A stretch of DNA of 64,000 bases from Flavobacteriales bacterium (lineage in GTDB: Bacteria; Bacteroidota; Bacteroidia; Flavobacteriales_D; Crocinitomicaceae), in assembly GCA_947475095.1 (NCBI GenBank), contig CANJLG010000002.1:1-64000 (forward strand). The letters are read 5' to 3'. A program made the translations under genes and the position numbers. Below, piece after piece: positions 30,984 to 50,963 of the stretch. The notes beneath the pieces are model-generated. The model saw only the letters and a list, made by a program, of their open reading frames with translations. It was not told where the DNA came from and searched no databases. Every line of letters begins with the position of its first letter. Position 1 is the stretch's first letter.

Positions 30984-32147
30984 CTATAAGGTCCCTCTAT
31001 TCTCTTGTTCTCTTTCAATCGCTTCAAATAAAGCTTTGAAATTCCCTTTCCCAAATGATTGCGCCCCTTTGCGTTGAATGATTTCAAAAAACATCGTCGG
31101 TCGATCAACCACTGGCTTTGTGAATAATTGAAGCAAGTAGCCCTCTTCATCGCGATCAATTAAAACACCATGTTGTTTTAATACCTCCACATCCTCATCT
31201 ATATGGCCCACTCGATCAATTAAATCAAGATAATACGAATCTGGCACATACAAAAATTCGACTCCACGATCGCGCATCGCCGAAACTGTTGCTATAATAT
31301 CATCCGTTGCAAGCGCAATGTGCTGTACACCTGGTCCATTATAAAAATCAATGTATTCCTCTATTTGAGACTTTTTCTTGCCTGCTGCAGGTTCATTTAT
31401 TGGAAACTTAATACGACCATTCCCATTACTCATTACCTTACTCATCAAAGCTGTATATTCAGTCGAAATGTCGTTGTCATCAAAAGAAATGATCTGTGCA
31501 AAGCCCATAACTTGAGCATAAAACTGGCACCAAGTATTCATTTCATTCCAATCCACATTTCCTACCATGTGATCGATAAATTTTAACCCTACAGGTGTTG
31601 GATTGTAGTGTGATGTCCATGCTTTGTAGCCCGGTAGAAAAATGCCTGAGTAATTAGAACGTTCAACAAAAATATGAACTGTTTCACCGTAAGTATAAAT
31701 ACCTGAACGAATTACAAATCCGTGTTCGTCTTCTTCACGGGTAGGTTCCATAAAAGGCTTCGCCCCTCTTTTAGTTGTTTCTTCAAAGGCCGAAGTAGCA
31801 TCTTCCACCCAAAGCGCAACTATTTTCACTCCATCGCCATGCTTATTAATATGTTCATTGATTACGCCATCCTTCGTTAAGGGTGTAGTTAACACTAAAC
31901 GGATTTTATCCTGCTTCAAAACATAGGATACACGATCCTTGCATCCCGTTTCTAATCCGGCAAAAGCCTCCGATTGAAAACCAAATGCCGTCTTATAATA
32001 AAGAGCAGATTGCTTGGCATTTCCTACATATAATTCAACATAATCAGTTCCCAATAGGGGAAGAAAATCTTGTGCATCGTTGAATAATTTCTTCAGACCA
32101 TAGGTCGTATTTTGAAGATTTTTTAAATTTTTAATTTCTGCAGACAT
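30984..32147 (-). CDS. hpd: 4-hydroxyphenylpyruvate dioxygenase
   Basis: A 387-residue Fe(II) dioxygenase converting 4-hydroxyphenylpyruvate to homogentisate in tyrosine breakdown. Two vicinal-oxygen-chelate halves are visible. The metal ligands are the His of FIDHMVGNVD, the His of GPGVQHIALATDD, and the Glu of FFEIIQRKG near the C-terminus, where the family's product-specific helix (FGKGNFKALFEAIEREQ) also appears. Second in an operon with hmgA, 12 bp apart, which catalyses the next step. Confidence 0.96.
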   Translation of the reverse strand: MSAEIKNLKNLQNTTYGLKKLFNDAQDFLPLLGTDYVELYVGNAKQSALYYKTAFGFQSEAFAGLETGCKDRVSYVLKQDKIRLVLTTPLTKDGVINEHINKHGDGVKIVALWVEDATSAFEETTKRGAKPFMEPTREEDEHGFVIRSGIYTYGETVHIFVERSNYSGIFLPGYKAWTSHYNPTPVGLKFIDHMVGNVDWNEMNTWCQFYAQVMGFAQIISFDDNDISTEYTALMSKVMSNGNGRIKFPINEPAAGKKKSQIEEYIDFYNGPGVQHIALATDDIIATVSAMRDRGVEFLYVPDSYYLDLIDRVGHIDEDVEVLKQHGVLIDRDEEGYLLQLFTKPVVDRPTMFFEIIQRKGAQSFGKGNFKALFEAIEREQENRGTL

Positions 32148-32159
32148 TGTTTTACTTTA

Positions 32160-33320
32160 TTAATGGTTCATCCATGATTTTGCGTAATCTTTCTCCTCAA
32201 TACCCATCGCAAAAGTAGTAAGTTGGAGGGGCTTGAAAGTATCAATCATCACAGCTAATTCTTCGGTGGAAGTTTTTCCAATACTTCTTTCGTAGGCGCC
32301 CGGATGCGGACCATGCGGAATACCAGATGGATGTAGCGTGATTTGTCCCTTCTCAATGTGGTTGCGACTCATAAAGTCCCCATCAACGTAATATAATACC
32401 TCATCGGAGTCAATGTTACTATGATTATAAGGCGCAGGAATAGATAAAGGATGATAGTCATAAAGTCGTGGAACGAAAGAACAGATCACAAAGGCACTTG
32501 TTTCAAATGTTTGGTGAACGGGAGGAGGTTGATGAACACGTCCAGTGATGGGTTCAAATTCATGAATGCTAAAAGCATAAGGGTAATTGAATCCATCCCA
32601 TCCGACAACATCAAATGGATGATGGGCATAGACATAATCGTGAAGAATATCCTGTTTTTTAATCTTGATTAAGAAATCCCCTGATTCATTGTGCGGTTCA
32701 ACATAACTTGGAGGACGAATATCGCGCTCGCAATAAGGTGAATGCTCTAGTAATTGTCCAAACCAATTTCGATAGCGCTTTGGCGTATATATAGGATGAA
32801 AAGATTGAAAAATTAGTAATTTATTATCGCTAGTATCAAAATGAATTTGATAAATCATGCCTCTTGGAATAACAATATAATCGCCATATTTAAATGCGAT
32901 GTTTCCCAATTGAGTTTTCACTGTTCCTTCCCCACGGTGAATAAAAATAACCTCATCCGCATCAGCGTTCTTATAAAAGTAATCCGACATAGAAGAACTA
33001 GGGGCAGCTAATTCTATGTAAACATCTTTGTTTACCAAAATTGGTTTTCTACTCTCTAAAAAATCATTGCAAGGCTCCACATTAAAACCTTGAAAACTAC
33101 GCATTTGCATATTATGTGAGAGAGCAATTTCAGGAGCAATATTCTTTTGGCCAAGAATTTCCTTGACCATCGTTGGTGGATTAATATGATACAATAAAGA
33201 AGACATGCCATCAAAACCTACCGTACCGAATAATTGCTCATGGTATAGCTTTCCGTTATCCTGACGGAAAACAGTGTGTCGTTTACCGGGAATTGATCCT
33301 AATTTTTGATAAAAAGGCAT
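32160..33320 (-). CDS. hmgA: Homogentisate 1,2-dioxygenase
   Basis: A 386-residue cupin-type Fe(II) dioxygenase that opens the ring of homogentisate to maleylacetoacetate. Motifs: FIHRGEGTVKTQLGNIAFKYGDYIVIPRG (N-terminal cupin), PPPVHQTFETSAFVICSFVPR, and PYNHSNIDSDEVLYYVDGDF with HPSGIPHGPHPG, which carry metal-binding His and Glu. Somewhat shorter than the human enzyme (about 445), as usual for Bacteroidota versions. First gene of the hmgA-hpd operon; maleylacetoacetate isomerase and fumarylacetoacetase are not in the window. Confidence 0.94.
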   Translation of the reverse strand: MPFYQKLGSIPGKRHTVFRQDNGKLYHEQLFGTVGFDGMSSLLYHINPPTMVKEILGQKNIAPEIALSHNMQMRSFQGFNVEPCNDFLESRKPILVNKDVYIELAAPSSSMSDYFYKNADADEVIFIHRGEGTVKTQLGNIAFKYGDYIVIPRGMIYQIHFDTSDNKLLIFQSFHPIYTPKRYRNWFGQLLEHSPYCERDIRPPSYVEPHNESGDFLIKIKKQDILHDYVYAHHPFDVVGWDGFNYPYAFSIHEFEPITGRVHQPPPVHQTFETSAFVICSFVPRLYDYHPLSIPAPYNHSNIDSDEVLYYVDGDFMSRNHIEKGQITLHPSGIPHGPHPGAYERSIGKTSTEELAVMIDTFKPLQLTTFAMGIEEKDYAKSWMNH

Positions 33321-34437: not shown

Positions 34438-34511
34438 TTTTGTTTAATCTTTATTAGTTTTTGTTAAACAATTTTGTTTAAGTTTGTATCGTAAACATTA
34501 AACAAAATTGT
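34438..34511 (+). promoter_or_regulatory. Repeat-rich promoter/operator of the sigma-carotenoid operon
   Basis: TTTTGTTTAA occurs at 34438-34447 and 34472-34481, with a close variant at 34458-34468. ACAATTTTGTTTAA (34468-34481) and TTAAACAAAATTGT (34498-34511) form a perfect 14-bp inverted repeat that ends at the ATG. Between the arms is TTTGTATCGTAAACA (34483-34497), which also occurs upstream of the subtilase gene at 52168. The layout suggests an ECF-type promoter plus a repressor or activator site; this is inference. Confidence 0.6.
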
Positions 34512-35024
34512 ATGTCGACATTAGAATTTAACCAAGCCCTCGTAGATTTAGAGTTTAATCTGCGTTCATTTGCGATGAGTTTCACTAGAAATAAGGCTGA
34601 TGCGCAAGATTTAACACAGGAAACCATGTTAAAAGCAATCACCTACAAAAACTACTACACTCCTCAAACAAATTTTAAAGCGTGGGTTTTTACAATTATG
34701 CGTAATATTTTTATTAATCAATACAGAAGGAAAGTGAAATCCAGAAGTATTTTTGATAGTTCTAAGGAATTAGAAACCATTTCAAATATGGTTGGTTCAA
34801 AATCAACACCGCTAGAATATATTTCAACCAAAGACATACGAAACAAAATTTCAAAATTAGACTCAGAATTTAAAAAACCATTTGAAATGCATTTTGAAGG
34901 TTTTAAATACCAAGAAATTGCAAACGAGTTAAAAATACCAATTGGAACAGTTAAAAGTCGTATCTTTATCGCTCGTAAAAAATTAATGGTAGCCCTTTCA
35001 GACTATTCCTATTCGGCAAATTAA
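34512..35024 (+). CDS. ECF-family RNA polymerase sigma factor heading the carotenoid operon
   Basis: A 170-residue ECF sigma factor. Region 2 is at about 10-75 (SFTRNKADAQDLTQETMLKAIT; TNFKAWVFTIMRNIFINQYRR) and region 4 at about 110-160 (LDSEFKKPFEMHFEGFKYQEIANELKIPIGTVKSRIFIARKKL). No anti-sigma gene is adjacent. It is immediately followed (0 bp) by crtI and leads a row of light- or oxidation-related genes, so it probably controls them and itself. Linked ECF sigma and crtI/crtB genes are known in other flavobacteria; induction by light or singlet oxygen is inference here. Confidence 0.93.
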   Translation: MSTLEFNQALVDLEFNLRSFAMSFTRNKADAQDLTQETMLKAITYKNYYTPQTNFKAWVFTIMRNIFINQYRRKVKSRSIFDSSKELETISNMVGSKSTPLEYISTKDIRNKISKLDSEFKKPFEMHFEGFKYQEIANELKIPIGTVKSRIFIARKKLMVALSDYSYSAN

Positions 35025-36494
35025 ATGAGTAAAAAAATTGTCATTCTAGGCGCTGGCATTGCCAGTCTTTCAGCGGCTTCTTTTTTAGCTAAAAAAGGAT
35101 ATAGCGTGACAATTTTAGAAAAAAATTCAAGCATTGGTGGCAGAGCAAGACAATATTCAGCCGAAGGATTTACATTTGATATGGGTCCTAGTTGGTATTG
35201 GATGCCTGATGTTTTTGAGAACTTCTATCAAAAATTCGGTTACACCACCTCTGACTTTTATGAACTCAAACGTCTAGATCCATCCTACAGTGTATATTGG
35301 CCAGATCATTCTAAATCTGAAATTCCAGCAGGAATGACAGAAATTGAAAATTGGTTTGAATCATTAGAGCCTGGAAGTGCTTTGAAGCTTAAAAAGTTTT
35401 TAAAAGATGCCAAATACAAGTATGATGTTGGCATGAATGATTTGGTGTTTAAACCTAGTTTAGGGGCTTTGGAATTTGCCGACATGCGTATTTTAAAAGG
35501 CATATTTAACCTACATCTTACGCAATCATTTTCAAGTTATATTAGAAAATACTTTACGCATCCAAAGATAATTTCCTTGTTAGAATTTCCAGTATTATTT
35601 CTTGGTGCTATGCCAAAAGATACGCCTGCACTTTACTCTTTAATGAATTATGCTGATTTATCACTAGGTACATGGTATCCAATGGGCGGCATGTATAAAT
35701 TTATTGAGGCTTTTGAAAAAATTGCCTTAGAACAAGGCGTAATCATTAAAACAAATTCAGAAGTTCTTTCGTTCGAATACTCAGGAAATAAAGCAATAGC
35801 TGCTATAACAGCCACAGAGAAATATGAAGCCGATATATTTATTTCGGGTGCAGATTATCAGCATACTGAAGCAAATTTACTGAAGGATAAAGCAAATTAT
35901 GATGATAGCTATTGGAATTCACGCACCATGGCTCCTTCCAGCTTAATTTTTTATGTAGGTCTCAATAAACGAGTTGAAAATTTAAACCATCACAACCTTT
36001 TCTTTGATGAGTCGCTAGAAGCGCATGGTGAAGAAATTTACAAGAATCCAAGATGGCCAAAAGCACCTTTGTTTTATTTGTCTGTTCCCTCTTTAACCGA
36101 TGCCAGCACAGCACCTTCAGGATATGAAAATTTATTTTTCTTGGTGCCAATCGCACCAGATCTAGAAGATACCGAAGAGATTCGGGAAGATTATTTTCAA
36201 CGCCTACTACTGAGACTAAAAACGATAACCGGCAATGATATAGAAAAGAATATCGTTTACAAAAGGAGTTTTTGTATTTCAGACTTTAAAAATGATTATC
36301 ACGCCTTCAAGGGCAACGCTTATGGTTTAGCGAATACGCTTAAACAAACAGCCATTTTTAAACCAAAGATTAAGAGTAAAAAACTAAGTAATTTTTATTA
36401 TACAGGACAGTTAACCGTTCCTGGACCCGGCGTTCCTCCCTCAATAATTTCTGGGGAAGTAGTTGCTAATTTAATTTTGAAAACCCATAAATAG
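35025..36494 (+). CDS. crtI: Phytoene desaturase (CrtI)
   Basis: A 489-residue FAD-dependent desaturase converting phytoene to lycopene through stepwise dehydrogenation. N-terminal dinucleotide-binding motif KIVILGAGIASLSAASFLAKKGYSV followed by EKNSSIGGRARQY and FDMGPSWYWMPD; C-terminal FAD signature FYYTGQLTVPGPGVPPSIISGEVVA. ATG directly follows the sigma factor stop. crtB follows 10 bp later; no cyclase or hydroxylase gene is present, so the end product cannot be told. Confidence 0.95.
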   Translation: MSKKIVILGAGIASLSAASFLAKKGYSVTILEKNSSIGGRARQYSAEGFTFDMGPSWYWMPDVFENFYQKFGYTTSDFYELKRLDPSYSVYWPDHSKSEIPAGMTEIENWFESLEPGSALKLKKFLKDAKYKYDVGMNDLVFKPSLGALEFADMRILKGIFNLHLTQSFSSYIRKYFTHPKIISLLEFPVLFLGAMPKDTPALYSLMNYADLSLGTWYPMGGMYKFIEAFEKIALEQGVIIKTNSEVLSFEYSGNKAIAAITATEKYEADIFISGADYQHTEANLLKDKANYDDSYWNSRTMAPSSLIFYVGLNKRVENLNHHNLFFDESLEAHGEEIYKNPRWPKAPLFYLSVPSLTDASTAPSGYENLFFLVPIAPDLEDTEEIREDYFQRLLLRLKTITGNDIEKNIVYKRSFCISDFKNDYHAFKGNAYGLANTLKQTAIFKPKIKSKKLSNFYYTGQLTVPGPGVPPSIISGEVVANLILKTHK

Positions 36495-36504
36495 ATCTAT
36501 TGCC

Positions 36505-37341
36505 ATGAAATCACTTTTCGATAGCATAAGTCAAGAAATGAGTGAGTTGACTACCAAACGGTACAGTACTTCATTTTCAATGGGTATTAGCTTACTCCAC
36601 AAAGACCTGCACAAACCAATCTACTCTATTTATGGATTTGTACGTTTCTCCGATGAAATTGTCGATTCATTTCATGATTTTGATAAAAAAGCACTTTTGG
36701 AAGACTTCAAAAACCAAACGCACCAAGCCATCCAATCCAAAATATCATTAAATCCAATTCTAAATAGTTTTCAATGGGTAGTTAATACCTACAACATTCC
36801 CATGGATTTAATCAATACTTTTTTGCATTCGATGGAAATGGATTTAGAGAAGCAAGATTATGACAAAGAAACATACGATAAATACATCCTTGGATCAGCA
36901 GAAGTAGTTGGACTAATGTGTTTATGTGTTTTTGTTGATGGCAATATCAAAGAATATGAGGCGCTTAAACCATCTGCAATGAAATTAGGATCTGCCTTTC
37001 AAAAAATTAATTTTTTAAGAGACTTAAGCACAGATTTCCAAGAATTAGGTCGTACCTACTTCCCTGGTCTTAGCATGAACGAATTCAATGCCCAAATCAA
37101 AGCAACAATTGAAGCCGATATTGAAATCGACTTTAAAGCGGGGTATGAGGGAATTAAAAAGCTACCGAAAAAAGCCCGCCTAGGTGTTTATTTAGCCTAC
37201 CGATACTATTTTAAGCTTTTCAAAAAAATTAAAAATACATCCATAGAAAAAATTCTAAAAGAAAGAATAAGGATTCCAAACAACAAAAAAATAGGTATTT
37301 TAATGATGTCCTACTTAAAAAACAGAATTAACAAAATATAA
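36505..37341 (+). CDS. crtB: Phytoene synthase (CrtB)
   Basis: A 278-residue squalene/phytoene synthase condensing two geranylgeranyl diphosphates. The first Asp-rich motif lies in FVRFSDEIVDSF (about 47-58). A second Asp cluster is in GSAFQKINFLRDLSTDFQELGRTYFPG (about 157-183), replacing the usual NxxRDxxxD with NFLRDLSTD. Shares an operon with crtI and overlaps the idi start by one base (TAATG). Confidence 0.94.
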   Translation: MKSLFDSISQEMSELTTKRYSTSFSMGISLLHKDLHKPIYSIYGFVRFSDEIVDSFHDFDKKALLEDFKNQTHQAIQSKISLNPILNSFQWVVNTYNIPMDLINTFLHSMEMDLEKQDYDKETYDKYILGSAEVVGLMCLCVFVDGNIKEYEALKPSAMKLGSAFQKINFLRDLSTDFQELGRTYFPGLSMNEFNAQIKATIEADIEIDFKAGYEGIKKLPKKARLGVYLAYRYYFKLFKKIKNTSIEKILKERIRIPNNKKIGILMMSYLKNRINKI

Positions 37342-37865
37342 TGAGTACAGACGTTATTTTAGTAGATGAAAACGACCAAGAGATTGGTCTTATGGAAAAA
37401 AATTCAGCACATGAATTAGGATTGCTTCATCGTGCTTTTTCGGTTTTCATCTTCAACGACAAACATGAACTATTACTTCAACAGCGGGCAGCAACTAAAT
37501 ATCACTCCCCAAGCCAATGGGCAAATACCTGCTGCAGCCATCCATATCCGAATGAAACGCTTGATGATGCAGCAAGTCGCCGATTAAATGAAGAGATGGG
37601 CATCTCCTGTGCGCTTCACAAACTATTTTCTTTTACCTACAAAGCCACCATGGATAACGGATTAATTGAACACGAGATAGACCATGTCTTTGTGGGCAAT
37701 TATGAAGAAAATCCACAACCTAATCCGGAAGAAGTTGCTCAGTTTAAATGGATTTCAATCAATGATTTAAAGAAAGAAATTATGGATTGTCCTCAGCAGT
37801 ATACTGAATGGATTAAAATAATTTTTGAGCATCATTCTGATCAATTTATACAAATAACATCATGA
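37341..37865 (+). CDS. idi: Isopentenyl-diphosphate delta-isomerase, type 1
   Basis: A 174-residue Nudix-fold enzyme interconverting IPP and DMAPP, feeding the carotenoid precursor pool. Catalytic Cys is in QWANTCCSHPYPNE, the Nudix-like ETLDDAASRRLNEEMGI follows, and the second catalytic Glu lies in NGLIEHEIDHVFVG. Overlaps crtB by 1 base and the pterin synthase by 4 bases, so it is translationally coupled on both sides. Confidence 0.95.
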   Translation: MSTDVILVDENDQEIGLMEKNSAHELGLLHRAFSVFIFNDKHELLLQQRAATKYHSPSQWANTCCSHPYPNETLDDAASRRLNEEMGISCALHKLFSFTYKATMDNGLIEHEIDHVFVGNYEENPQPNPEEVAQFKWISINDLKKEIMDCPQQYTEWIKIIFEHHSDQFIQITS

Positions 37866-38269
37866 TTAAAGTTTGTAGAAGAAGTACATTTAATTCGGCT
37901 CATCGCCTTTTTAGACCAGATTGGAGCGACGAAAAAAACAATGCCGTTTTCGATAAGTGCAACAATCCCAACTACCATGGGCATAATTACACCTTAGAAG
38001 TGTGGGTTTCGGGAGAAGTTGATCCTGAGACAGGGTACCTAATAGACCTAAAAATCTTGAAAACAATCATTCAAAAAGAAATCATTGATCGATTTGACCA
38101 TCGAAACCTAAACCTAGATTGCCCAGAATTCGAACAATTAAATCCCACTGCCGAAAATATTGCTGCAGTAATTTACAGGTTGATGCGAGAAGCCATGGAT
38201 AAGAAATATGAGCTGAGTATTACACTATGGGAAACCGAAAATAACATTGTTTATTTCGATGGAAAATAA
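37862..38269 (+). CDS. 6-pyruvoyltetrahydropterin synthase-like enzyme (PTPS-II motif)
   Basis: A 135-residue COG0720 protein. Zinc ligands are H14 (NSAHRLF), H39 and H41 (YHGHNY), and the catalytic Cys is C33. The spacing is C-x5-HGH (KCNNPNYHGHNY), the pattern of PTPS-II enzymes that make 6-pyruvoyltetrahydropterin, not the C-x3-HGH of QueD in queuosine synthesis. It also shares CNNPN-HGHNY with animal PTPS. It sits between idi (4-base overlap) and the photolyase gene (9 bp), so a pterin for the photolyase or another light receptor is the natural guess. The activity itself is inferred; many genome annotations would call this queD. Confidence 0.85.
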   Translation: MIKVCRRSTFNSAHRLFRPDWSDEKNNAVFDKCNNPNYHGHNYTLEVWVSGEVDPETGYLIDLKILKTIIQKEIIDRFDHRNLNLDCPEFEQLNPTAENIAAVIYRLMREAMDKKYELSITLWETENNIVYFDGK

Positions 38270-38278
38270 TATTGTCAC

Positions 38279-39589
38279 ATGAGTAATACCGTACTTTTCT
38301 GGCATAGAAGAGACCTACGAATCAACGATAATGCGGGATTATTTAAGGCCCTAACATCAGGATTAAAGGTACAGCCCGTTTTTATTTTTGATAAGCAAAT
38401 CCTCTCTAATTTAGCGAAAGATGACCAGCGAGTCGCTTTTATTTATCAAGAAATTCAGCGCTTAAAACAACAATATCAATCACTTGGAACTGATTTACTT
38501 GTACTATACGGCGATCCCACGCATTGGATTCCTGACCTATGTTCAAAACTAGCGTGCAGTCATGTTTTTACAAACTCAGATTATGAGCCTTATGCCTTCA
38601 TTCGAGATAATGAAATCAAGATAAAACTTAGCAGTGTAAACTGTGCGTTTATTGAAGCCAAAGACCATGTTATTTTTGAAAAAAGTGAAGTCACAAAAGA
38701 CGATGGTCTCCCCTACACGATCTACACACCGTATGCGAATAAATGGAAAAAACTATTAACTGAAGATCAACTTATTGCCTTTGGAAGTAGCGAGCAGGCT
38801 CATCAACTTAGACAAGCGAATGAATTTACTTCACTTATCTCGATGGAAGAAATGGGGTTTAATTCCAACATCAAAACAAATTTTCCAAGTAATCTTTTTC
38901 CTGAAACGATTATTTCAAACTACCACGAGACCAGAAACTTCCCAGCTTTATTAGGCACATCACGTTTAAGCATTCATTTACGCTTTGGCACCATTAGCAT
39001 TCGTTCACTAGCGGCATATGCCCTAAAACACAACGCTACCTATCTCAATGAATTAATCTGGCGAGACTTTTACCAAATGATTATTTTCCATTTTCCAAAA
39101 ACAATCAATAATGCTTTTAAACCACTTTACGATCAAATTAATTGGGAGCGTAATGAAGTGCACTTTCAAGCCTGGTGCGACGGGAAAACAGGATATCCTT
39201 TAGTTGATGCCGGAATGCGTGAACTCAACGAAACGGGCTTTATGCATAACCGAGTAAGAATGGTGGTGGCTAGTTTTTTAACCAAACACTTACTTCTTGA
39301 TTGGAGGCTTGGCGAAGCCTATTTTGCCGAAAAACTATTGGATTTTGAATTGGCAAGCAATGTAGGTGGTTGGCAATGGGCCGCAGGTTCCGGCTGCGAT
39401 GCTGCACCCTATTTCCGAGTATTCAATCCAACAAGTCAACAAGAAAAATTTGACCCAACGTTTTCATACATTAAAAAATGGGTGCCTGAATTTGGAACAA
39501 GTAATTACCCAAAACCAATTATAGAACATACTTTTGCCCGAGAACGAATTTTAGCACGATATAAACAAGCATTAACATCAAACGCATGA
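38279..39589 (+). CDS. phrB: Cryptochrome/photolyase family protein, probable CPD photolyase
   Basis: A 436-residue class I-type photolyase, repairing UV dimers with blue light. The N-terminal antenna-binding domain (about 1-130) has VLFWHRRDLRINDNAGL. The FAD domain contains TSRLSIHLRFGTISIRSL, LIWRDFYQMIIFHFP, DAGMRELNETGFMHNRVRMVVASFLTKHLLLDWRLGE and NVGGWQWAAGSGCDAAPYFRVFNP, the DNA- and FAD-contacting core. Trp residues suitable for electron transfer are present (WRDF, WRLGE, WQWAAG). Part of the sigma-carotenoid operon; ends with a 4-base overlap into the peroxiredoxin. Confidence 0.94.
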   Translation: MSNTVLFWHRRDLRINDNAGLFKALTSGLKVQPVFIFDKQILSNLAKDDQRVAFIYQEIQRLKQQYQSLGTDLLVLYGDPTHWIPDLCSKLACSHVFTNSDYEPYAFIRDNEIKIKLSSVNCAFIEAKDHVIFEKSEVTKDDGLPYTIYTPYANKWKKLLTEDQLIAFGSSEQAHQLRQANEFTSLISMEEMGFNSNIKTNFPSNLFPETIISNYHETRNFPALLGTSRLSIHLRFGTISIRSLAAYALKHNATYLNELIWRDFYQMIIFHFPKTINNAFKPLYDQINWERNEVHFQAWCDGKTGYPLVDAGMRELNETGFMHNRVRMVVASFLTKHLLLDWRLGEAYFAEKLLDFELASNVGGWQWAAGSGCDAAPYFRVFNPTSQQEKFDPTFSYIKKWVPEFGTSNYPKPIIEHTFARERILARYKQALTSNA

Positions 39590-40044
39590 TTAAAGTTGAC
39601 GATTATTGCCCGGGATTTAAACTGCTAAACCAGGACAGCATGAGCATTGACATGAGTGAGCAACTAGGAAACTCAATCATTATATTATTTTTTTATCCAA
39701 AAGATGATACCCCTGGTTGTACAAAAGAAGCGTGTCGTTTTCGAGATACCCATCAAGATTTTCAAGACCTTGGATGTACGGTTTTTGGGATTTCATCCGA
39801 CTCAACTAAAAGCCACAAAAAATTTGCTAATAATCACCAATTACCATTTGATTTATTAAGTGATGAGGGTGGTAAAATCCGAAAATTATTCGCCGTACCT
39901 ACCAATCTATTTGGATTAATACCGGGAAGAGTTACCTATATTATCGGAAAGGATAAAAAAATTCATGGTATTTACAATTCTCAAACAGACCCAATTGGTC
40001 ACGTTAGCAAAGCATTAGAATTTGTAAAGCAACTCGCTGTTTAA
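39586..40044 (+). CDS. Peroxiredoxin, BCP/AhpC-TSA family
   Basis: A 152-residue thiol peroxidase. Peroxidatic Cys is in FYPKDDTPGCTKEACRFRD (about 34-52), with the second Cys five residues later, as in E. coli BCP. The C-terminal RVTYIIGKDKKIHGIYNSQ completes the thioredoxin fold. Last gene of the ECF-carotenoid-photolyase operon, which strengthens the oxidative or light-stress theme. Its stop overlaps the stop of the convergent acyl-CoA dehydrogenase. Confidence 0.94.
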   Translation: MIKVDDYCPGFKLLNQDSMSIDMSEQLGNSIIILFFYPKDDTPGCTKEACRFRDTHQDFQDLGCTVFGISSDSTKSHKKFANNHQLPFDLLSDEGGKIRKLFAVPTNLFGLIPGRVTYIIGKDKKIHGIYNSQTDPIGHVSKALEFVKQLAV

Positions 40045-49800: not shown

Positions 49801-49808
49801 TATCTTTG
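49801..49808 (+). promoter_or_regulatory. -7 promoter element (TATCTTTG) for tgt
   Basis: TAnnTTTG match 24 bp upstream of the ATG at 49833. It overlaps the in-frame TTG at 49806, which is therefore not the start. Confidence 0.6.
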
Positions 49809-49832
49809 CTTTACTTTTTTTTCAACATTCTT

Positions 49833-50963
49833 ATGCACTTTGAACTACTCCAGGAAGATAAAGATACCTCAGCGCGTCTTGGATTAATCCATACCGATCA
49901 TGGTAGCATCACCACGCCGATTTTCATGCCCGTTGGCACTGTTGGAAGCGTTAAAGGTGTCCATCAACAAGAACTAAGAGATGATATTGGCGCCCAAATA
50001 ATTCTTGGAAATACCTATCATTTATTTTTACGCCCCGGTGTTGAGATCATTGAAAAAGCAGGAGGCTTGCATCAATTCATTGGCTGGGAACGCCCAATGC
50101 TTACCGATAGTGGTGGATACCAAGTTTACTCCCTATCAGGATCAAGGAAAATAAAAGAAGAAGGCGTTACGTTTCAATCGCACCTTAATGGGAGCTACTT
50201 ATTTTTTTCACCAGAAACAGCCATTGACATGCAGCGAAGCATTGGGGCAGATATTATCATGGCTTTTGACGAATGTACCCCATATCCGTGTGATTATAGT
50301 TATGCTAAAAATTCAATGGAACTTACACACCGATGGTTAAAACGATGTGATGACCATATGAACAATACGCGACCACTTTATGATTATGAACAGACCTTAT
50401 TCCCTATTGTACAAGGGAGCACATATAAAGATTTAAGAACAATTTCAGCAGAAACCATCGCTCAATATGGTAAGATCGGTAATGCAATTGGAGGTTTATC
50501 CGTTGGGGAACCTGAGGATGAATTATACGCAATGACAGAACACGTTTGTCAAATTTTACCAAAAGATAAAGCGCGCTACTTAATGGGCGTAGGAACACCC
50601 TGGAATATCCTAGAGTGCATAGCACTAGGAATCGACATGTTTGATTGTGTAATGCCAAGTCGAAATGCACGACATGGTATGCTTTTCACCTGGGAAGGAA
50701 CCTTAAATATAAAAAATAAAAAGTGGGCAGATGATTTTAGTCCCATTGATCCAACTTCAAAAGTTTGGGTAGACCAAGTATATACAAAGGCGTATTTAAG
50801 GCATTTAATAAGTTCCAAAGAATACCTCGGAATTCAAATTGCGACCATTCATAATTTAGCCTTTTACCTTGAATTAGTTGATCAAGCAAGGCAGCATATT
50901 AAAGCCGGCGACTTTTTGACATGGAAAAATACGATGGTAAAACAACTTTCTCAAAAAAGATAA
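49833..50963 (+). CDS. tgt: tRNA-guanine transglycosylase lacking the canonical zinc cysteines
   Basis: A 376-residue Tgt that swaps G34 for preQ1 in queuosine tRNAs. The base-exchange core is intact: LTDSGGYQVYSLSG with a catalytic Asp, GIDMFDCVMPSRNARHGMLF with the nucleophile Asp, and GGLSVGEPEDE. The zinc site is altered: where bacterial Tgt has DPxCxCYTCxxYSRAYLRHL, this reads DPTSKVWVDQVYTKAYLRHL, losing all three Cys, while the later His (ATIHNLAFYLELV) remains. The ATG at 49833 is chosen because the longer reading starts inside the promoter. Followed 3 bp later by an LptF/G-type permease gene. Confidence 0.93.
   Translation: MHFELLQEDKDTSARLGLIHTDHGSITTPIFMPVGTVGSVKGVHQQELRDDIGAQIILGNTYHLFLRPGVEIIEKAGGLHQFIGWERPMLTDSGGYQVYSLSGSRKIKEEGVTFQSHLNGSYLFFSPETAIDMQRSIGADIIMAFDECTPYPCDYSYAKNSMELTHRWLKRCDDHMNNTRPLYDYEQTLFPIVQGSTYKDLRTISAETIAQYGKIGNAIGGLSVGEPEDELYAMTEHVCQILPKDKARYLMGVGTPWNILECIALGIDMFDCVMPSRNARHGMLFTWEGTLNIKNKKWADDFSPIDPTSKVWVDQVYTKAYLRHLISSKEYLGIQIATIHNLAFYLELVDQARQHIKAGDFLTWKNTMVKQLSQKR

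Follow-up and report, generated by a model that had tools for sequence, protein, structure and literature searches.

The window, by which we mean the whole 64,000-nucleotide stretch of DNA that was analysed, contains a tightly packed operon, sigECF-crtI-crtB-idi-PTPSa-phr-prx (34512-40044), whose consecutive genes are separated by no more than 10 bases or overlap by 1-4 bases (Table 1). The PTPSa gene, the subject of this report, overlaps with its start the stop of the upstream Idi gene by 4 bases, and the photolyase gene (phr, product Phr) begins 9 bases past the PTPSa stop. Two dyads resembling an operator stand ahead of the sigma factor gene, and a scan of the operon with the sigma-70 consensus found 18 matches, against 21.0 expected in shuffled sequence. 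An HPPD gene and a divergent HGO-like gene, the latter scoring 65.6 bits against a cut-off of 510.75, adjoin the operon in many of the loci read in the genus.

Table 1. Features of the operon and its surroundings, with positions in the window.
Feature	Position	Strand	Evidence
HPPD gene and divergent HGO-like gene	30984-33320	-	
Operator-like dyad 1, TGTTTAA-N16-TTAAACA	34441-34470	+	exact dyad
Operator-like dyad 2, TGTTTAA-N16-TTAAACA	34475-34504	+	exact; 7 bases before sigECF start codon
ECF sigma factor (sigECF)	34512-35024	+	NCBIfam sigma70-ECF 85.5 bits, cut-off 42.9; Pfam Sigma70_r2, r4_2
CrtI/CrtID-type phytoene desaturase	35025-36494	+	NCBIfam CrtID 713.9 bits, cut-off 640
CrtB-type phytoene/squalene synthase family	36505-37341	+	Pfam SQS_PSY 4.2e-39; under all NCBIfam equivalog cut-offs
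Type 1 isopentenyl-diphosphate isomerase (Idi)	37341-37865	+	NCBIfam IPP_isom_1 142.6 bits, cut-off 105.8
PTPS-II-type 6-pyruvoyltetrahydropterin synthase (PTPSa)	37862-38269	+	Pfam PTPS 4.5e-35, solved relatives, alignment, model
Codons of C33-x5-H39-G40-H41 in PTPSa	37958-37984	+	
Class I-type photolyase, 436 aa (Phr)	38279-39589	+	Pfam DNA_photolyase, FAD_binding_7 3.7e-74; best solved 1owl/1tez
PrxQ/BCP-like peroxiredoxin (Prx)	39586-40044	+	Pfam AhpC-TSA 5.4e-34; under NCBIfam equivalog cut-offs
tRNA guanosine(34) transglycosylase (Tgt)	49806-50963	+	483.7 bits, cut-off 306.75

The arrangement recurs in the genus. Among 20 PTPSa loci, picked to include odd cases, sigECF lies ahead of PTPSa in all 20 and Phr lies beside PTPSa in 17, two of which are cut by contig ends; Phr is not beside PTPSa in L017, L020 and L029, and at some loci the two are separated by one gene or a few. 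Counted over 59 PTPSa genes of the genus, a photolyase domain follows on the same strand at no more than 3 kb for at least 46, and for 13, some of them at contig ends, none was found within 10 kb among the matches listed. One locus (L032, genome G039) has lost crtI, crtB and idi and retains sigECF, one dyad, PTPSa, Phr and Prx. We found no published description of the sigECF-crtI-crtB-idi-PTPS-phr-prx operon in the literature searched, and one may exist; the proposed light link across the operon, the dyads and the SDR links described below were found in this analysis. An earlier note on this DNA had proposed a light-related setting from one neighbouring gene, and that proposal is now carried by the operon, by the conserved dyads and by CarH-like genes in relatives.

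Type of the pterin synthase

In the passages of PMC5041015 that we draw on, C-x5-HGH denotes PTPS-II, C-x3-HGH denotes QueD and E-x-x-HGH denotes PTPS-III. The PTPSa reading frame is intact and encodes 135 aa with the motif KCNNPNYHGHNY, that is C33-x5-H39-G-H41, so the spacing claimed in the earlier note stands. An alignment of 14 PTPSa proteins leaves H14, C33, H39, G40, H41, D79, H80 and E124 invariant, the His, Cys, Asp, His and Glu positions among them being presumably the zinc and catalytic sites. The closest solved structures are those of human (1.5e-31), rat (1.9e-30) and C. elegans PTPS (3.5e-24); the next after these animal enzymes comes at 8.6e-11, and E. coli QueD at 1.7e-9 or weaker. 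The AlphaFold2 model (mean pLDDT 91.3) matches human PTPS with a TM score of 0.91 and E. coli QueD with one of about 0.75, and the NCBIfam QueD model gives PTPSa 73.9 bits, below its cut-off of 89.25, as against 111.4 for E. coli QueD. Judged by its sequence and predicted fold, PTPSa is of the PTPS-II type, with animal PTPS as its closest kin and QueD at a clearly greater distance. With the PTPS-II enzymes known as human and rat PTS and Synechococcus PTPS-II it shares the C-x5-HGH motif, the conserved His/Cys/Asp/His/Glu set, length, fold and the best sequence match; unlike them, it stands in a carotenoid-photolyase operon with conserved dyads, belongs to a genus without detectable aromatic amino acid hydroxylase (AAAH) and is known here from sequence. 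With QueD (PTPS-I) it has in common the family (PF01242) and the overall fold, whereas the motif spacing, the length, the QueD score and the lack of a full-length QueC in the genus set it apart.

If PTPSa were nevertheless a QueD, it would make 6-carboxytetrahydropterin for queuosine and its motif spacing would be unimportant, a reading that gains something from the presence of tgt in the window, 11.5 kb from PTPSa. Since Tgt is encoded there, salvage of a queuosine precursor, or another supply, is possible. The earlier note had seen on one side a photolyase in place of a queuosine gene, which is correct, and the other neighbour is not a queuosine gene either, though tgt lies at that distance; no QueC, QueE or QueF gene was seen by eye at the loci read. 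What tells against QueD is that a search of 61 genus genomes turned up no full-length QueC. Partial QueC matches at E<=0.001 occur in 40 of the 61 (best 3.8e-8, all those listed being partial), most of them in frames of about 370-800 aa, and we take them for other ATP-pyrophosphatase-type enzymes; full-length QueC in a draw from the phylum mostly scores about 1e-44 to 1e-76, and in the organism's own class 1 of 37 genomes has a long match (G131, 1.1e-33). QueD was rejected on this absence. PTPSa does not have C-x3-HGH, and with the QueD score under its cut-off and animal PTPS as nearest relatives we regard QueD as very improbable. The preference of the earlier note for PTPS-II over a queuosine role is upheld by the animal affinity and the missing QueC. 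A folate bypass of the PTPS-III kind, supplying the photolyase with MTHF, would make sense of the adjoining photolyase, MTHF being a common photolyase antenna. It was rejected on the presence of FolB (58 of 61 genus genomes, and all 38 near-complete ones) and by the absence of E-x-x-HGH from the 14 aligned PTPSa; the MTHF contacts of the photolyases are also not kept (see below), and we give this reading next to no weight.

The worth of motif spacing itself came out lower than the earlier note had supposed: the C-x5 form is indeed present, but as an argument against QueD it is weak, being the common form in the Bacteroidota proteins read and occurring together with QueC in two genomes. Among 181 Bacteroidota PTPS rows, which include repeats of the same genes from overlapping loci, a script counted 171 as C-x5, 9 as C-x3 and 1 as neither; the L140 protein is C-x5 by eye, with an overlapping HGHGH. 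Because two genomes (G120 and G160) each pair a single family match, of the C-x5 form, with a full-length QueC, C-x5 enzymes may act as QueD somewhere, a point on the side of the QueD reading, and a role as QueD may not be excluded in Bacteroidota by looking at the motif spacing and nothing else. The missing QueC in the genus is the better argument against QueD than the spacing, and we would warn that annotation within COG0720 may need more than C-x5-HGH in Bacteroidota. C-x3-HGH QueD-like proteins were also seen at L164 and L165, in genomes of the own class (G139 and G204) without a full-length QueC match. The COG0720 phylogeny suggested in the earlier note gave a divided answer: in a tree of 170 rows PTPSa does fall in a clade apart from the C-x3 rows, but that split has an SH-aLRT of 60 only, the tree being too short for so deep a split. 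PTPSa groups there with Idi-PTPS proteins of Flavobacteriaceae and PTPS-FolE proteins of Cyclobacteriaceae and others (SH-aLRT 80), and a second PTPS of the genus, PTPSb, falls in a separate clade (SH-aLRT 86).

Dyads, regulators and linked genes in relatives

At least one dyad precedes sigECF in all 21 genus loci, and two or more do so in 20 of them; all 11 loci with sigECF in named genomes likewise have at least one. At named PTPS-FolE loci without the sigma gene, a dyad stands before PTPS in 9 of 24 and is missing in 15, 8 of the 9 lying 29-33 bases from PTPS; the L112 dyad is weak, with two mismatches and a distance of 78 bases. None was found at 29 Idi-PTPS loci without sigma, and one at 12 other named loci. 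These counts by locus type allow up to 2 mismatches and spacers of 15-18. With at most 1 mismatch, the named and SDR loci together gave 37 dyads against 6 in shuffled sequence (one shuffle per locus), and none is listed at 12 PTPSb or 20 SDR loci. The dyad of L066 overlaps the sigma reading frame as called.

Three named loci (L066, L071 and L092) encode MerR-B12 proteins of 286-293 aa just upstream of sigECF or PTPS, and no such regulator occurs in the window or in any other locus read. All three proteins have MerR_1 and B12-binding_2 domains above the Pfam cut-offs and contain W-x9-EH; the one in L066 lacks the E-x-H-x-x-G/S/A form tested. The best solved matches of the regulator in L071 (Lishizhenia tianjinensis) are Thermus proteins of the CarH type (3whp, 2.4e-16; 5c8d, named CarH, 2.8e-16), and the part of it aligned with CarH takes in a 'wHei' stretch where the B12-ligating His is expected. 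In L071 and L092 a dyad also precedes the start of the regulator itself. The passages of PMC9304148 used here describe W-x9-EH as a signature of CarH, whose operators are 11-bp direct repeats with TnnACA for their core. The half-site TTAAACA contains this core, whereas the dyads are inverted and the operators described in those passages are direct repeats. The CarH/LitR control of carotenoid synthesis that the same passages report for Thermus and Myxococcales has its likeness in the W-x9-EH MerR-B12 gene beside the operon in three relatives; unlike it, the operon here includes PTPS and a photolyase, and the regulator gene is seen in the loci of relatives. We infer that a CarH-like repressor pairs with the dyads. 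The dyad also supplies an operator-like motif with which the light regulon of aquatic Bacteroidota could be mapped.

PTPS matches occur in 59 of the 61 genus genomes and two copies in 55. PTPSb likewise has the C-x5 spacing and in the own genome is 49% identical to PTPSa; its gene immediately precedes FolE in all 12 loci read (FolE confirmed for the own genome); these 12 loci and the 20 SDR loci were hand-picked. A scan of named genomes was limited to the best 80 PTPS loci, all from Bacteroidota by title, and recovered a PTPS reading frame in 76; the locus includes Idi in 40 cases, FolE in 26, Prx in 17, Phr in 16 and sigECF in 11. L066 has the order sigECF-crtI-crtB-idi-PTPS-flavin reductase-Phr-Prx, and L103 the order PTPS-FolE-SDR-flavin reductase-class I photolyase-CryDASH.

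An orthologue of the L103 SDR was found in 30 of the 31 genus genomes searched (46-59% identity, E 1.1e-53 or better), the SDRs that follow it beginning at 2.8e-28. Its distance to a photolyase domain is 3 kb or less in at least 15 of the 30 genomes and 10 kb or less in at least 20, the two always being on the same strand; for the own genome there is no photolyase near the SDR among the matches listed. At 10 of the 20 loci read, the next gene after the SDR is of the photolyase, cryptochrome-like or DPRP type; a flavin-reductase-like gene is near in 3. All 31 sequences, which include L189 9437-10099, L103 9060-9776 and L190-L208, have I or V at the position of the catalytic Tyr, keep the Lys and have an invariant FH. 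Because I or V replaces the catalytic Tyr, the photolyase-linked SDR appears to be no textbook sepiapterin reductase. It is like sepiapterin reductase and FolM-type SDRs in that its gene adjoins FolE and PTPS in L103, L112 and several Algoriphagus, and unlike them in that the NCBIfam models that match it best describe general SDRs, and it reaches the cut-off of none of these. A flavin-reductase-like gene stands between or beside PTPS, SDR and photolyase genes in L066 (8383-9051), L103 (9777-10415), L112, L194, L199 and L205, and such a gene is present at L021-L024 too (by eye or by BLAST against the reference set); the proteins of L066 and L103 belong to PF01613.

Possible uses of the pterin

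We propose that FolE, encoded elsewhere beside PTPSb, would make dihydroneopterin triphosphate, that PTPSa would convert it to 6-pyruvoyltetrahydropterin, its presumed product, and that a separately encoded SDR probably finishes the pterin. A CarH/LitR-like MerR-B12 repressor probably sits on the twin dyads in the dark and leaves them in the light, and the ECF sigma factor, carotenoid genes, Idi, PTPSa, photolyase and peroxiredoxin would form one light-responsive operon. The pterin would serve light protection, most likely together with photolyase or cryptochrome, as their antenna, electron donor or another kind of cofactor; failing that, it would be a photoprotectant. We consider it likely that PTPS activity belongs to a light-controlled operon; that the photolyase consumes the pterin is plausible, with appreciably less confidence. 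These observations suggest that a reduced pterin helps these bacteria to cope with light. The complete scheme, in which light leads to a tetrahydropterin by way of FolE, PTPS-II, a Tyr-less SDR and a flavin-reductase-like protein, and this tetrahydropterin serves several photolyase/cryptochrome families as a dedicated cofactor (antenna or electron donor) in some Bacteroidota, is put forward tentatively and with some doubt; if true, the biopterin route would have a use here other than those in hydroxylases and nitric oxide synthase.

Pseudomonas offers a precedent for pterin synthesis tied to light: according to the parts of PMC9758184 on which we rely, light raises folM and folE a few-fold and phrB about thirtyfold there, and a LitR-like site stands before folM. 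The LitR regulon described in them (phrB, cryB, folM-folE-folX) is similar in its light-linked photolyase and pterin genes, MerR-B12 regulator and paired sites; it differs in a FolX/FolM pterin route instead of PTPS, in the operator TGTACA-N12-TGTACA, in a class II LitR that works with a LOV protein, and in that carotenoid genes are not among the genes named in those parts. They place light-inducible pterin genes beside photolyase genes and give no role for them. For Chryseobacterium lacus, the text of PMC7064467 available to us describes light-induced carotenoid synthesis of unknown regulation. The puzzle addressed here is why light would turn on pterin synthesis in non-photosynthetic bacteria, and its PTPS version, a Bacteroidota family with a conserved dyad, a photolyase-adjacent SDR and no detectable AAAH in the genus, makes the question testable.

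Who consumes the pterin is where the remaining explanations part. A cofactor for AAAH, or for another tetrahydropterin-dependent oxygenase, could be looked for on account of the tyrosine-catabolism genes (HPPD, HGO-like) that adjoin the operon, of carbinolamine dehydratase in 39 of the 61 genus genomes, the own genome included, and of AAAH in 28 of the 46 named PTPS genomes tested (46 from the best 80 loci); yet AAAH was found in none of the 61 genus genomes, for which reason the AAAH use was rejected in the genus, and the explanation as a whole is improbable in our view. In the named genomes AAAH is present in only 1 (L066) of the 12 with PTPS and Phr on the same strand within about 3 kb, as against 27 of the 34 others (Fisher p 2.3e-5, a test that ignores kinship and completeness), and photolyase-linked PTPS therefore tends to go without its usual consumer AAAH. 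A soluble reduced pterin, perhaps glycosylated at a later step, might instead quench light-born oxidants, as the carotenoid and the peroxiredoxin would, and have nothing in particular to do with the photolyase. Such a photoprotectant has a precedent in the biopterin glucosides of cyanobacteria, and the operon shared with crtI, crtB, idi and a PrxQ-like gene, as well as the Prx that adjoins PTPS in several named Flavobacteriaceae, would suit it; by itself it leaves the SDR and flavin-reductase-like orthologues beside photolyases at other loci unexplained, and we hold it to be possible rather than probable.

The explanation we favour, use of the pterin with photolyase or cryptochrome, includes as a special case that the adjoining photolyase binds the PTPSa pterin as its light-harvesting chromophore. 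The 24 photolyase rows aligned with E. coli PhrB do not keep its MTHF contacts, which we take to be N108, E109 and K293 (crystal numbering): the class I rows have A or G in place of E109, the N is retained in a few rows and is Y in the window photolyase, and K293 lies where the alignment is broken by gaps. On these contact residues an antenna of the E. coli MTHF type was rejected, and a de novo 8-HDF antenna because none of the 61 genus genomes passes the CofH cut-off (weak partial matches occur in 22). With the MTHF contacts not kept and CofH below cut-off, it is not clear that the photolyase has either of these two widespread antennae to draw on; there is room for another, though none is shown. 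A pterin antenna also draws on the adjacency of PTPSa and photolyase in the genus and on the photolyase genes of the class I, cryptochrome-like, DASH and DPRP types near which PTPS, FolE, SDR and flavin-reductase-like genes repeatedly occur. Linkage that recurs with more than one type of photolyase favours a use tied to these proteins; a general photoprotectant, too, agrees with the carotenoid and peroxiredoxin genes nearby. Against the antenna, Phr is not beside PTPSa in some genomes, Idi-PTPS pairs without an adjoining photolyase are common in named Flavobacteriaceae, and the site could be empty or carry flavin; we know of no biopterin-type photolyase antenna, and we judge this special case unlikely.

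At three named loci (L068, L086 and L109) tandem PTPS genes, one PTPSb-like and one PTPSa-like, stand before FolE with a photolyase nearby, a possible trace of duplication.
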